A stretch of DNA of 64,000 nt from Prochlorococcus sp. AG-347-I06. GTDB taxonomy: Bacteria > Cyanobacteriota > Cyanobacteriia > PCC-6307 > Cyanobiaceae. The first letter of the stretch is position 1, and each line of letters begins with the position of its first letter. Below are positions 30,433-49,328 of the stretch, one piece after another. A program made the position numbers and the translations under genes. Under the pieces are notes generated by a model that made no database searches, was not told the origin of the DNA, and worked only from the letters and a program-made list of their open reading frames with translations. The stretch spans positions 1 to 64,000 of the forward strand of contig QCBM01000004.1 of NCBI GenBank assembly GCA_003281605.1. Direction: 5' to 3'.

Positions 30433-31491
30433 GTGTTACAAACTTACGGAAAATCTGATGTCACCTATGACTGGTATGCAGGGAATTCTGGTGTTGTTGG
30501 CCGTTCAGGTAAATTCATAGCTGCTCATGCTGCCCATGCAGGTTTAATGATGTTCTGGGCAGGAGCTTTTGGATTATTTGAATTGGCCCGTTACGACTCC
30601 AGTATTCCAATGGGTGCACAGAAAGCAATTGTTTTGCCTCACCTGGCTGGTATTGGAATTGGTGGTATTGAAAATGGTGTTATTACAGAACCTTATGGAA
30701 TTGTTGTAATTTGCACATTACATCTAATATTCTCAGCAGTATTGGGTGCTGGAGGATTACTGCACTCCAATAAATTTGCAGGTGATCTTGGAGACTATCC
30801 AGAGAATAGTAAGCCACAAAAATTTGATTTTGAATGGGATGATCCAGATAAATTAACTTTTATTCTTGGTCATCATCTAATTTTTCTGGGGCTTGGAGCA
30901 ATAATGTTCGTTGAATGGGCTCGTATTCATGGAATTTACGACCCAGCAATAGGATCTACAAGACAAGTTATTTACAATTTAGATATTGCCGCTATCTGGA
31001 ATCATCAATTTGATTTTTTAAAAATAGATAGTCTGGAAGATGTTATGGGTGGACATGCTTTTCTAGCTTTCCTCGAAATAATTGGAGGGGTTTTCCATAT
31101 TTGTACTAAACAATTTGGAGAATATACAGAATTTAAAGGAAAAGGATTACTTGGAGCTGAGGCAATTTTGTCATATTCAGTGGTGGGTGTTTCTTATATG
31201 GCTTTTGTTGCTGCTTTTTGGTGTGCTTCAAACACAACTATATATCCAGTTGATTTGTATGGAGAGCCCTTAAAGCTTCAATTTGAATTCGCACCTTATT
31301 TTACCGATACGGTAGATTTAGGTTCAGGGGTATATAGCTCAAGAGCTTGGCTTGCTAATACTCATTTTTATTTGGGTTTCTTTTTCTTACAAGGTCATCT
31401 TTGGCATGCATTAAGAGCAATGGGATTTGACTTTAAGAAAATTGGTCAAGCTTTTGACAATATTGAAAATTCAAAAATTACTCAAAATTAG
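30433..31491 (+). CDS. pcb: Pcb/IsiA-type chlorophyll a/b-binding antenna protein
   Basis: A 352-residue six-helix antenna related to CP43 but lacking its large lumenal loop. It starts at a GTG (VLQTYGKSDVTYDWYAGNSGVVGRSGKFIAAHAAHAGLMMFWAGAFGLFELARYD). Chlorophyll-ligand histidines occur in AAHAAHAG, LPHL, ILGHHL, GGHAFLAF, GVFHICTKQ and GHLWHALRAM. It lies about 145 bases after isiB and has its own terminator. Position next to flavodoxin suggests the iron-stress-induced Pcb that surrounds photosystem I, in addition to a constitutive Pcb elsewhere. That role is inferred. Confidence 0.95.
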   Translation: MLQTYGKSDVTYDWYAGNSGVVGRSGKFIAAHAAHAGLMMFWAGAFGLFELARYDSSIPMGAQKAIVLPHLAGIGIGGIENGVITEPYGIVVICTLHLIFSAVLGAGGLLHSNKFAGDLGDYPENSKPQKFDFEWDDPDKLTFILGHHLIFLGLGAIMFVEWARIHGIYDPAIGSTRQVIYNLDIAAIWNHQFDFLKIDSLEDVMGGHAFLAFLEIIGGVFHICTKQFGEYTEFKGKGLLGAEAILSYSVVGVSYMAFVAAFWCASNTTIYPVDLYGEPLKLQFEFAPYFTDTVDLGSGVYSSRAWLANTHFYLGFFFLQGHLWHALRAMGFDFKKIGQAFDNIENSKITQN

Positions 31492-42931: not shown

Positions 42932-43057
42932 CTAATAAATTTTAAAAAAATCAATTTTGAGATCAAAAGTAACTACTATTCCAATACTTATAAGCAGTAA
43001 TCCAATTGCAATTTGGGGTGAAGGCAATATCATATAAGTCTTATTTTCAACCACCAT
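42932..43057 (-). CDS. Candidate single-helix membrane microprotein (41 aa)
   Basis: On the minus strand ATG 43057 to TAG 42932 encodes MVVENKTYMILPSPQIAIGL followed by LLISIGIVVTFDLKIDFFKIY. Residues about 13-32 form one strong hydrophobic helix flanked by polar ends, the layout of small photosynthetic-complex subunits, though it matches none I know (PsaM, PetL, PsbX, Ycf12). No clear ribosome site. It could be a chance frame in AT-rich DNA. Confidence 0.38.
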   Translation of the reverse strand: MVVENKTYMILPSPQIAIGLLLISIGIVVTFDLKIDFFKIY

Positions 43058-43125
43058 ATCGAATCTTTCTCAGTATCGATGAAAGATTGAGTAATATTAA
43101 TTCTGAATAAAGCATTACTTTAAAA

Positions 43126-43307
43126 ATGGCAAAAGTAGAAAATGATCTTGATATATATTACGCAGTTGGAAATGCAAATACTCAAAGACAAGAAAAGAAC
43201 TTGCAGCAATTATGAAAAAACGTAATTCTGCAGGATGGAAGTTGATCTCAACAAGTACCGCAATAGTAGATACTAAAAAGCAGTTTTCAAATCTTTATCT
43301 AATTTAG
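43126..43307 (+). pseudogene. Frameshifted small gene (DUF4177-like)
   Basis: From ATG 43126 the frame reads MAKVENDLDIYYAVGNANTQRQE and then, after an A-run at about 43193-43196, runs to a quick TGA at 43213. One base over, the sequence continues convincingly as KELAAIMKKRNSAGWKLISTSTAIVDTKKQFSNLYLI to TAG 43307. The second half has the GWKLIST pattern of small DUF4177-type domains. One missing A would explain it. It could be a true pseudogene, a sequencing error or a slippage site. Confidence 0.6.
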
Positions 43308-43529
43308 AAAAAAAATTAGTAATTAATCTTGTAGATATTTTATATCTTTCTTCAGTAAGTTTTACAAATTAGTAACTCTCCAAACACATTAATCTCTAAT
43401 AAGTAAAAACGTTTTCTCTAAGGGTTTTTTTTCTTTATTTCCAGAAATGGAAATTGGCAGATGTGACGGTTAAGTAACATTCAATTCAACCTTTCCACGA
43501 AAAAGAATTAAATGACATAATCTTAAAAG
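43308..43529. other. Spacer without recognised genes
   Basis: No coding frame with a sensible start was found on either strand between the frameshifted gene and the small-RNA candidate. The stretch includes a T8 run near 43425-43432 that follows only a weak hairpin. The last bases carry the promoter of the RNA candidate (TAATCT at 43518-43523). Confidence 0.5.
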
Positions 43530-43623
43530 GTGTGAAGGAGAGGTTTTACTGAAAAGTGGGAACAAGGAAACACTTTATTTGGTAAAGCCATAAGAGACCC
43601 CATCTTTAGGGGTCTTTTTTTTT
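43530..43623 (+). ncRNA. Small RNA, Yfr2 family-like (copy 2)
   Basis: A complete non-coding unit is visible. A TAATCT -10 box lies at 43518-43523. An outer stem pairs GGTTTTACT (43542-43550) with GGTAAAGCC (43581-43589) over nine pairs, including G-U. An inner stem pairs AAAGTG (43553-43558) with CACTTT (43571-43576), and the 12-base loop is GGAACAAGGAAA. A strong terminator follows. Length (about 94 nt), two-stem architecture and the GGAAACA loop agree with what is known of the Yfr2-5 RNAs of Prochlorococcus. Targets are unknown from sequence. Confidence 0.65.
43593..43623 (+). terminator. Intrinsic terminator of the Yfr2-like RNA
   Basis: AGACCCC (43595-43601) pairs perfectly with GGGGTCT (43609-43615) around ATCTTTA, followed by eight or nine T. 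It is among the strongest terminators in the window although no protein gene ends here. Confidence 0.92.
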
Positions 43624-43812
43624 GCAAATTCTTTCCTTCTATTCACTTCCCTGCGTCTTCACCAGTATTCCCTATAGATTCCAAAAATTTGATTATGTAC
43701 AAAATGAGTTTCTTTCTAAATATTTCTTGTTTGGTTCCATAATTGCCCAAGTAGGATAAGATGTGATTTCACCCTTTCTGTTTTTGATAACCATTTGTAA
43801 TCTTCATCTTAT

Positions 43813-44361
43813 ATGAATAGAAAAGGTTTAAATTTTAAATCAGCAATTTATAAAATATTTTTTACTTATTTAGGGGTTTATTTTCTTGCTCTGATATTCA
43901 AGTATAACTATGATCTTGACTCCGTATTTAATAATATTCAATATAAATATTTGATTGCTTTAAATATAGTTTCTATATTTTTAGGCCTACCATTATCAAT
44001 TATTTTTGACTTTATATTATTAAAGATTTTTGGATTGAACTATGTTTTATTATTTTCTCCTGCTTTAACCATTTTAAGTGTAATTCAAGTTCTTATTCTT
44101 AGGAAAATTAAATTTAAATTTTCTAGAAATATATTATTTTTAAAAAGACCAGAAAAATATAATCTTTATAAATTTTTTGACAATATTACTTTTAAATCTT
44201 TTTATATTTTAATCATTAGATCTTTCCCCATCCTACCTCATGTTTTTGGGAGCTATATTATTGCCTCGTCAAAAATTAAAAAGGAGATTATTCTAATAAA
44301 CACATTTTTTGGATCATTTTTTTACTATGTTTTCCTTTATCTAATAATAGGTAATGTTTAG
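43813..44361 (+). CDS. VTT/DedA-like membrane protein
   Basis: A 182-residue protein with about five hydrophobic segments. NIVSIFLGLPLSIIFDFILLKIFG resembles the first re-entrant loop, and LIIRSFPILPHVFGSYIIASSKIKKEIILINTFFGSFFYY the second conserved region, of VTT-domain (TVP38/TMEM64, DedA) proteins. These are proposed lipid scramblases or transporters. Resemblance is moderate. It is convergent with the ferredoxin gene, 6 bases apart. The 43624-43812 spacer before it holds only a doubtful 33-residue minus-strand frame. Confidence 0.6.
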   Translation: MNRKGLNFKSAIYKIFFTYLGVYFLALIFKYNYDLDSVFNNIQYKYLIALNIVSIFLGLPLSIIFDFILLKIFGLNYVLLFSPALTILSVIQVLILRKIKFKFSRNILFLKRPEKYNLYKFFDNITFKSFYILIIRSFPILPHVFGSYIIASSKIKKEIILINTFFGSFFYYVFLYLIIGNV

Positions 44362-46885: not shown

Positions 46886-48268
46886 TTAATCTAAATCAGG
46901 CATTTCTAGAGCTGGTTCACTCTTTCTGTCGATTCCTTTTTCGAAACCAGCAGCGGCTGCTCTAGCACGTCCAGCATGCCAAAGATGACCGATGAATGTA
47001 AACCATCCTAGGAAGAATTGAGCTGCAGCTAACCACTGTCTTAAGTTAACGAAGTTAACAGCATTAGGCTCTGTAATGATTCCACCAACAGAGTTGATAG
47101 AAGCGTTAGGAGCATGAGTCATATATTCAGCAGCTCTTCTTACCTGCCAAGGCTGAATATCATTCTGGATTTTCTCAAGGCTCAATCCGTTAGGTCCTCT
47201 TAAAGGCTCTAACCATGGGCCTCTGAAATCCCAAAATCTCATTGTTTCACCACCAAATATAATTTCACCAGTAGGAGATCTCATGAGATACTTACCTAGA
47301 CCAGTTGGTCCCATTGTTGAACCTACGTTAGCTCCAATTCTTTGATCTCTCACAAGGAAAGTAAAGCTTTGAGCCTGTGAAGCTTCAGCATTTGTTGGAC
47401 CATAAAACTCTGAAGGGTAAGCAGTGTTATTAAACCAGATGAATGTTGAAGCAATAAAACTTGCCACACAAATTCCACCTAAAGCATAACTTAATAGTCC
47501 TTCACCATTCCAAATGAATGCTCTTCTAGCCCATCCAAAAGGTTTGGTAAATATATGGAAAAGACCACCAATTATTGCGGTAATTCCAACATATACGTGA
47601 CCACCAACTATATCCTCTATGGAGTTAACACCGATTATTGAACCAGCTCCACCCCAAGGAGACCTAAATAGATAACCAAGTATTACTCTTGGATCTAAGG
47701 TAGGGCTGACTAACCTAACTTCTCCACCACCAGGTGCCCATGTATCATAAGCTCCTCCGATGAACATCCAATCAAAAACGAAAAATAATGCCCCAACGCC
47801 TAATACTATTAGGTGATAACCCAAGATATTAGTCATTTGATTCTTATCTCTCCAGTCTGTTGAAAAGAAAGGGAAATCTTGCTCAAGTTTTTCTGGACCA
47901 GCTAAGGAATGATAGATACCACCAAATCCTAAAACTGCAGAGGAAATTAAATGCATCACACCAGCAACAAAGAATGGGTATACATCAGTAACTTCTCCAC
48001 CAGGTCCAATTCCAAAACCAAACATTGCAACGTGAGGCATACAAATTAAGCCTTGTTCCCACATTGGTTTATCAAATGTGAAATGGCTTACTTCGAATAA
48101 CATCATTGCACCGGCCCAAAAAACAATTAGTCCAGTGTGTGCAATGTGAGCACCGAGTAAACGGCCAGATAAATTAATTAATCTGGCGTTACCTACATAC
48201 CAAGCATAACCAGTTTCTTCAATACTCTGGTTAGGTGCTCTGAGTAAACTATTAAAGGGCGTTTCCAC
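46886..48268 (-). CDS. psbC: Photosystem II CP43 protein
   Basis: A 460-residue core antenna of photosystem II with six transmembrane helices and the large lumenal loop (about 280-410, including [24 protein letters not shown], whose Arg approaches the Mn cluster). The start chosen is GTG at 48268, reading [36 protein letters not shown] longer frame starts at ATG 48295, but the GTG inside psbD is the family's known start. It overlaps psbD by 17 bases, so translation is coupled. The terminator follows 14 bases after the stop. Confidence 0.98.
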
Positions 48269-49328
48269 GTGGTAGAACCTCCTCAGGGAATACAAAGTTT
48301 TCGTGTGGTTGATCCACAGAAGACATCCATGCTCTCATACCTTCGTTCAAAAGTATATTTTTTGTATAGAAAGTTTCAAATTCTGGATCTTCTGCAGCAC
48401 GAATTTCTTGGCTTACAAAGTCATAAGCTCTTAAATTTAGTGCTAATCCGACAATACCAATTGAAGATGTCCACATACCCATAACAGGTACAAAAAGCAT
48501 CAAGAAGTGTAAGAAACGTTTGTTTGAGAAAGCAATACCGAAGATTTGACTCCAGAATCTATTCGCTGTAATCATTGAATAAGTTTCTTCTTCTTGTGTT
48601 GGATCGAAAGCTCTAAATGTTGAACTTTGAACCTTACCATCTGTATAAATACTTGTATCTTCATACAAAGTGTTCTGTACTGTAGCTCCATGAATAGCGC
48701 AAAGTAGAGCACCACCTAGAATTCCAGCTACTCCCATCATGTGGAATGGATTTAAAGTAATATTGTGAAAACCTTGAATAAACAGAATATAACGGAAGAT
48801 TGCTGCTACACCGAATGAAGGCGCGAAGAACCAACTATGCTGTCCTAAAGGATAAATAAGGAAAATACTTGTAAATACTGCAATAACAGCTGAGAAAGCT
48901 AATGCGTTGTAAGGTCTAATTCCTACAAGTCCAGCAATTTCAAACTGACGAAGCATAAAACCAATAAGGCCAAATACTCCATGTAATGCAACGAAGTTCC
49001 AAAGACCACCAAGTTGTAGCCATCTTACGAAACTACCTTGGGCTTCAGGACCCCATAAAAATAGAAGACTGTGTCCCATGGCATCACCAGGGGTACTTAC
49101 AGCTGCTGTTAAAAAGTTACAACCTTCAAGGTATGAGCTTGCAACTCCGTGTGTGTACCAAGAGGTAACAAATGTTGTTCCGACGAACCAACCACCTATA
49201 GCAAGATATGCACAAGGAAGTAGAAGTAGTCCGGACCAACCAATAAATACAAAGCGGTCGCGCTTCAACCAATCATCGAGGACATCAAACCATCCTCTCT
49301 GTGGGGCGCTACCAACTGCGATCGTCAT
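48252..49328 (-). CDS. psbD: Photosystem II reaction centre D2 protein
   Basis: A 358-residue five-helix protein that binds half of the special pair, QA and the non-heme iron. [104 protein letters not shown] and the C-terminal [15 protein letters not shown] are near-invariant. First gene of the psbDC operon, divergent from ycf4 over a spacer of 184 bases that must hold both promoters. Confidence 0.99.

Follow-up and report, generated by a model that had tools for sequence, protein, structure and literature searches.

Yfr2 is a well-studied family of small regulatory RNAs of ocean cyanobacteria, and the family itself, its fold, its multiple copies and the neighbourhood of Yfr10 and Yfr2 are already in print (PMC1242208, PMC2518516, PMC2662882, PMC6778093). 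Its hallmark is a 12-nt loop with a GGAAACA repeat on a long, bulged stem (PMC1242208, PMC2662882); the Cyano-1 motif, which characterises Yfr2 RNAs (PMC8400943), is listed as RF01701 (PMC2864571). In MED4, the 5′ end of yfr2 was mapped to position 346828, with a length of 94 nt (PMC1242208), and Yfr10 and Yfr2, which follow each other there in the order described below, reportedly share a 270-nt precursor (PMC2518516). Yfr2 of MED4 pulled down both Yfr1 and Yfr10, restored a reporter repressed by Yfr1, and was cut by RNase E unless bound to one of these two RNAs (PMC6778093). Furthermore, two MED4 Yfr2 homologues are regulated by the GntR protein PMM1637, whose CGRE1 motif, according to the same report, occurs nowhere else in the MED4 genome (Lambrecht 2019, PMC6778093).

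We analysed 64,000 nucleotides of Prochlorococcus sp. AG-347-I06 (hereafter the window), in which a Yfr2-like small RNA had been predicted. The covariance-model search proposed with the original prediction returned RF01701 at full model length and above the gathering score (model positions 1-69 of 69; 53.2 bits against 41; E 2e-6), and Yfr2 identity is supported because PMC8400943 links the Cyano-1 motif to this family; the family loop, 5′ tail, terminator and covarying stems were likewise found. GTGTG starts exactly at window position 43530, the G equivalent to MED4 346828, which is the first G of GTGTG in that genome, so that the predicted start corresponds to a mapped 5′ end and the predicted end gives the same length, within the 89-95 nt of the family. 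Genome G015 was taken as MED4 because its Yfr10 match at 346661-346738 coincided with the published Yfr10 position (PMC2518516). We consider it very probable that the window carries a secondary-locus Yfr2 gene of a high-light-type Prochlorococcus, whose own promoter, probably controlled by an upstream operator, is predicted to drive a stable base-pairing RNA of about 94 nt. The features of the locus are collected in Table 1.

Table 1. Features at and around the Yfr2 gene (window coordinates).
Feature	Position	Strand	Evidence and remarks
Yfr2 RNA, predicted 94 nt	43530-43623	+	RF01701 match; start equivalent to mapped MED4 yfr2 5′ end; covariation
RF01701 match	43526-43594	+	Rfam covariance model
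Free 5′ tail GUGUGAAGGAGA, complementary to Yfr1 motif	43530-43541	+	Mean unpaired probability 0.91; pairs with own Yfr1 in co-fold
12-nt loop GGAACAAGGAAA	43559-43570	+	Mean unpaired probability 1.0
Terminator hairpin, then T run to 43623	43592-43618	+	Terminator scan; fold
-10 box CATAAT	43516-43521	+	Promoter scan; TG directly before; 8 nt ahead of start; alone not above chance
Palindrome-like element; half-site TGTGACGGTTAAG at 43462-43474	43452-43471	+	Near-fixed distance in most of 149 Yfr2 loci
Decayed Yfr10-like element	43368-43442	+	35.9 bits, gathering score 43; motif ACTCTCCAAACAC; no hairpin or terminator predicted
Broken small protein gene, upstream of Yfr2	43126-43307	+	Two ORF pieces; whole 64-aa ORF in L142

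The minimum-energy fold of the Yfr2 strand reached -31.4 kcal/mol (z = -3.54), a value that none of 200 shuffles equalled. The two-part stem that had been predicted is present with other pair counts than the nine outer and six inner pairs proposed: 12 outer and 5 inner pairs separated by a 2-nt bulge, or 11 and 5 in the centroid fold. The predicted 12-base loop is fully unpaired, and the loop and long bulged stem of the family are thus both found, one of the two motif copies reading GGGAACA; this variant, the first copy in the window, is shared among the loci listed by L122 and L175 only. The conserved 5′ end complementary to Yfr1 is mostly unpaired.

Absence of the two stems from other Prochlorococcus genomes had been named as an outcome that would speak against the prediction; RF01701 is present in 85 of 101 genomes of the genus (this one included), and the stems covary. 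Loci around the matches supplied 150 Yfr2 cores, 149 of them with at most two mismatches to the core consensus, and after setting aside two incomplete cores and nine duplicates, 138 distinct sequences were aligned. A first alignment comprised 86 of these, picked by hand, the 52 omitted being mostly main-locus copies along with some others. In this alignment, RNAalifold found changes on both sides at 15 of the 20 pairs of its own structure; for the fold of the window's own sequence, 91.6% of the cells could pair, 18 of 27 pairs showed both-side changes against 10.7 in shuffles, and all five measures were better than in 500 of 500 shuffles and in every slid control. Over all 138 sequences, with the structure again taken from the window's own sequence and with shuffles that ignore relatedness, 87.5% of the cells pair (78.3 in shuffles) and 21 of the 27 base pairs have both-side changes (13.1 in shuffles), neither value being reached in any of 500 shuffles.

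As to transcription signals, the -10 box is credible because of its position relative to the mapped homologous start and not because of the hexamer scan, which returned 6 sites against 5.0 expected (sd 2.9); hexamers by themselves prove nothing here. The very strong terminator of the original prediction was recovered as a hairpin of 10 pairs, 5 of them G-C, followed by a T run, and the interval 43000-44000 holds two terminator-like sites (one per strand, the same hairpin) against 0.3 expected. As to the statement that no reading frame is present, three ORFs of at least 25 aa overlap the RNA: two short ORFs, of 31 and 34 aa, lie on the opposite strand, and a forward-strand ORF begins at 43622 and so touches only the last two bases.

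The gene order around Yfr2, namely a rhomboid-type gene (PF01694), the Yfr10-like element, Yfr2, a 182-aa ORF, a Fer2 gene and a cobQ-type gene, recurs with variations in many of the fetched Prochlorococcus loci. The broken gene described upstream is indeed in pieces here and whole in L142. The 182-aa ORF (43813-44361, forward strand) had been labelled VTT-like; a Pfam search did not confirm this label, assigning the ORF to no family at E ≤ 0.001. Upstream of Yfr10 and Yfr2, the otherwise orthologous locus L126 (G005:C9, 170-1400) has, in place of the rhomboid gene, an ORF of 340 aa resembling an iron-binding protein, together with a short ORF resembling a translated tRNA. Elsewhere in the window, two Rfam matches to IsrR (47671-47854, forward, 155.4 bits; 30835-31006, reverse, 54.9 bits) lie antisense to a CP43/PsbC-like ORF (46886-48295, reverse) and a Pcb-like ORF (30433-31491, forward), respectively; IsrR is antisense to isiA, a relative of the CP43/PsbC and Pcb genes, and both matches may reflect coding similarity only.

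We scanned named genomes with the CobQ-type protein, using the best 80 of 156 relatives, which are titled Prochlorococcus or uncultured Synechococcaceae, include the isolates MIT 9107 and MIT 9314, and which we take to belong to the high-light II clade; they are partly the same genomes as the genus set, so the two sets are not independent. Within the flank examined near cobQ, 52 of these 80 loci contained the Yfr2 core and 28, among them MIT 9107 and MIT 9314, did not, five of the 28 having less than 2.6 kb of flank. The place is conserved, often without Yfr2. Across the 52 loci, the distance between Yfr2 and cobQ ranges from 358 to 3253 bases, so the downstream neighbour is not constant. This variation, together with a strong terminator that ends about 190 nt ahead of the 182-aa ORF, makes it extremely improbable that the RNA is a 5′ leader or attenuator of that ORF rather than a free small RNA, even though the ORF lies downstream on the same strand and two Synechocystis Yfr2 genes have their start site in common with the downstream gene (PMC2662882).

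Upstream of the free Yfr2 RNA, about 68 nt ahead of its start, lies the element AATTGGCAGATGTGACGGTTAAG, which departs from the palindrome AACTGTCACATGTGACAGTT by 4 mismatches and is a degraded version of it. Its half-site ATGTGACAGTTAAG was found across the 149 Yfr2 loci at a nearly fixed distance, with at most one mismatch in 105 and at most two in 126, compared with 0 and 3, respectively, of 2980 control sequences (20 shuffles per region); moreover, the half-site pattern TGTGACNGTTAAG occurs a single time in the 1.52-Mb assembly, at the Yfr2 locus. When the loci were sorted by a crude tail pattern into 55 main-type and 94 other loci, the main-type loci had the half-site and almost never the full palindrome (at most 4 mismatches in 1 of 55), whereas 54 of the 94 others had the palindrome with at most 3 mismatches. 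Of the MED4 genes, yfr2 and yfr4 have the palindrome (2 mismatches) and yfr3 and yfr5 lack it; this agrees in number with the GntR control of two homologues, which is suggestive. A single GntR-domain gene is present in this genome and a single one in MED4, with 85% identity between them. The upstream element may be the GntR operator CGRE1.

The original prediction held that the neighbours give no hint of targets, which is fair for the protein genes; the conserved upstream element and a decayed Yfr10, both overlooked in that prediction, do bear on function. The Yfr10-like element is the best Yfr10 match in this genome, yet it scores below the cut-off of RF02362, its ACUCCUCACAC motif is changed, and neither hairpin nor terminator is predicted, whereas Yfr10 scores above the cut-off in 78 of the 101 genus genomes. 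Its fold reaches -4.2 kcal/mol versus -16.2 for MED4 Yfr10, and 2 of 12 orthologous elements folded with the same rough borders fell below -6 kcal/mol. Exact ACTCCTCACAC stands upstream of Yfr2 in 92 of 150 genus cores; at the locus type of the window, the exact 11-nt Yfr10 motif was found in 3 of the 52 named loci with Yfr2 (best 80 of 156 relatives). The element is seemingly lost in six aligned orthologues (L041, L052, L094, L098, L118 and L134). Since the local Yfr10 looks decayed, the Yfr2 of the window has probably lost its pairing with an antagonist encoded in cis. Decay of Yfr10 at this locus is not described in the papers that we consulted, all found with queries that did not name it.

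The same decay might extend to Yfr2 itself, leaving a recognisable copy that, like the adjoining Yfr10, lacks expression or function. The RF01701 score of this copy is among the lowest in the genus list, the first loop motif is altered, the upstream palindrome is degraded, and Yfr2 is missing from the same place in a part of the named relatives, as counted above. Nevertheless, this copy retains an intact fold, terminator, -10 box and tail, and in the 23 orthologues that keep the Yfr10 element the mean identity is 95% for the Yfr2 tail, 99% for the loop and 92% for the upstream element, far above the 70% of the Yfr10 segment; we accordingly judge a decaying copy improbable. In these orthologues, conservation of the promoter stretch (66%) and of the terminator (61%) does not exceed that of the Yfr10 segment.

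For a functional Yfr2, the presumed partner is encoded on the same contig, where Yfr1 (RF01116), present in 78 of the 101 genus genomes, is intact at 164787-164840 between guaB-like and trxA-like ORFs. When this Yfr1 was co-folded with the Yfr2 of the window, ACUCCUCACAC paired with GUGUGAAGGAG with one base bulged, and the gain of 15.8 kcal/mol was matched by none of 200 mononucleotide shuffles (best 15.2); a plain duplex scan that ignores internal structure lacked selectivity, since 119 of 1000 random 94-mers scored as low. We had considered whether the one-base difference of the tail (GTGTGAAGGAG as opposed to the exact complement GTGTGAGGAG) marks a lost Yfr1 site. This was rejected because an extra base (T, A or C) is present in nearly every genus copy listed, L102, L148 and L150 differing, and because imperfect pairing of the MED4 tail, with one bulge and one mismatch, has already been described (PMC2518516).

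Yfr10-Yfr2 pairs at this locus showed no pair-specific coevolution, own pairs averaging -15.27 and swapped pairs -15.30 kcal/mol (26 loci, p = 0.56); over 122 loci of mixed classes the gain was small (-16.68 versus -16.52 kcal/mol, p = 0.028). The simplest reading is therefore that trans-acting partners such as Yfr1 hold the Yfr2 tail, as the frequent local decay of Yfr10 also suggests. At one orthologous locus (L102; G060:C3:92400-95500), the Yfr2 tail GTGTGAAGAGT complements the local Yfr10 motif ACTCTTCACAC exactly, and the own-pair energy of this locus, -18.6, is the best of the 26 tested.

In the mechanism that we propose, the gene's own promoter, probably under the conserved upstream operator, would give the stable RNA, whose free 5′ tail would bind Yfr1, and any functional Yfr10, at their ACUCCUCACAC motif and thereby relieve the targets of these RNAs, and whose GGAAACA-type loop may contact further RNAs. 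By analogy with MED4, this copy would sequester its partners and be subject to RNase E and GntR control, with no functional Yfr10 beside it. More tentatively, and short of a view that we would favour, high-light secondary Yfr2 loci might be uncoupling from the cis antagonist, Yfr10 decaying or being deleted and the Yfr2 tail, loop and operator remaining under selection. If so, the secondary copies would act as unopposed Yfr1 sponges, and transcription, with the Yfr10 terminator gone, would read through to give a precursor of about 256 nt (43368-43623).

RF01701 matched the assembly once at E 0.001, which we do not take as the copy number because the main locus falls in an assembly gap. The usual main Yfr2 locus lies about 28 kb from yfr1 in G042, G050 and MED4; in G050, the DNA leading up to the main-locus region can be followed on contig C10 (96 and 95% identical) as far as the final base of that contig, and matching resumes on C15 after 12.9 kb of G050 sequence that has no counterpart in this assembly and contains the main locus. 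A single copy in this genome was thus rejected as a conclusion, and true loss of the main-locus copy is possible. When the flanks of the other Yfr2 locus were sought in this genome, a DNA search with 3 kb returned one related gene (79%), which has a different setting, and a match of 38 bases; at the protein level, one relative turned up (35% identical). Some draft contigs end at or beside Yfr2 (L163, end of G073:C7; L155, start of G067:C22; L118, end of G046:C47); the repeated gene seems to disturb assembly, and draft genomes may understate the number of Yfr2 copies. A phage-borne Yfr2 was also considered: the one exact viral-contig match lies on the strand opposite a 532-aa reading frame, has no RF01701 match and was put down to chance, and the phage records searched gave only two short matches (E 0.6).

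Computation thus established for this genome the family membership, fold, covariation and upstream element of its Yfr2 and the pairing potential with its own Yfr1. As a Yfr2, the copy is an ordinary find that adds little alone; its decayed Yfr10 partner is a small surprise. The comparison yields two testable points, a Yfr2-specific upstream element, possibly a GntR operator, and frequent local decay of Yfr10. Relative to Yfr2-Yfr5 of MED4 and RF01701, the RNA agrees in its full-length model match, 12-nt loop on a long stem, free 5′ tail, terminator, length of 94 nt and Yfr10-type element upstream, and differs in its first loop motif, GGGAACA instead of GGAAACA, and, from the MED4 copies, in a Yfr10 neighbour that looks decayed; its tail has A (GTGTGA) where main-locus copies have T (GTGTGT). 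Yfr1 is a separate gene and a presumed partner, not a relative, its motif being nearly complementary to the Yfr2 tail. Compared with Yfr10 (RF02362), Yfr12 and Yfr18 of MED4, the neighbouring element retains position and a sequence remnant, but it falls below the family cut-off, with a changed motif and no predicted hairpin or terminator.
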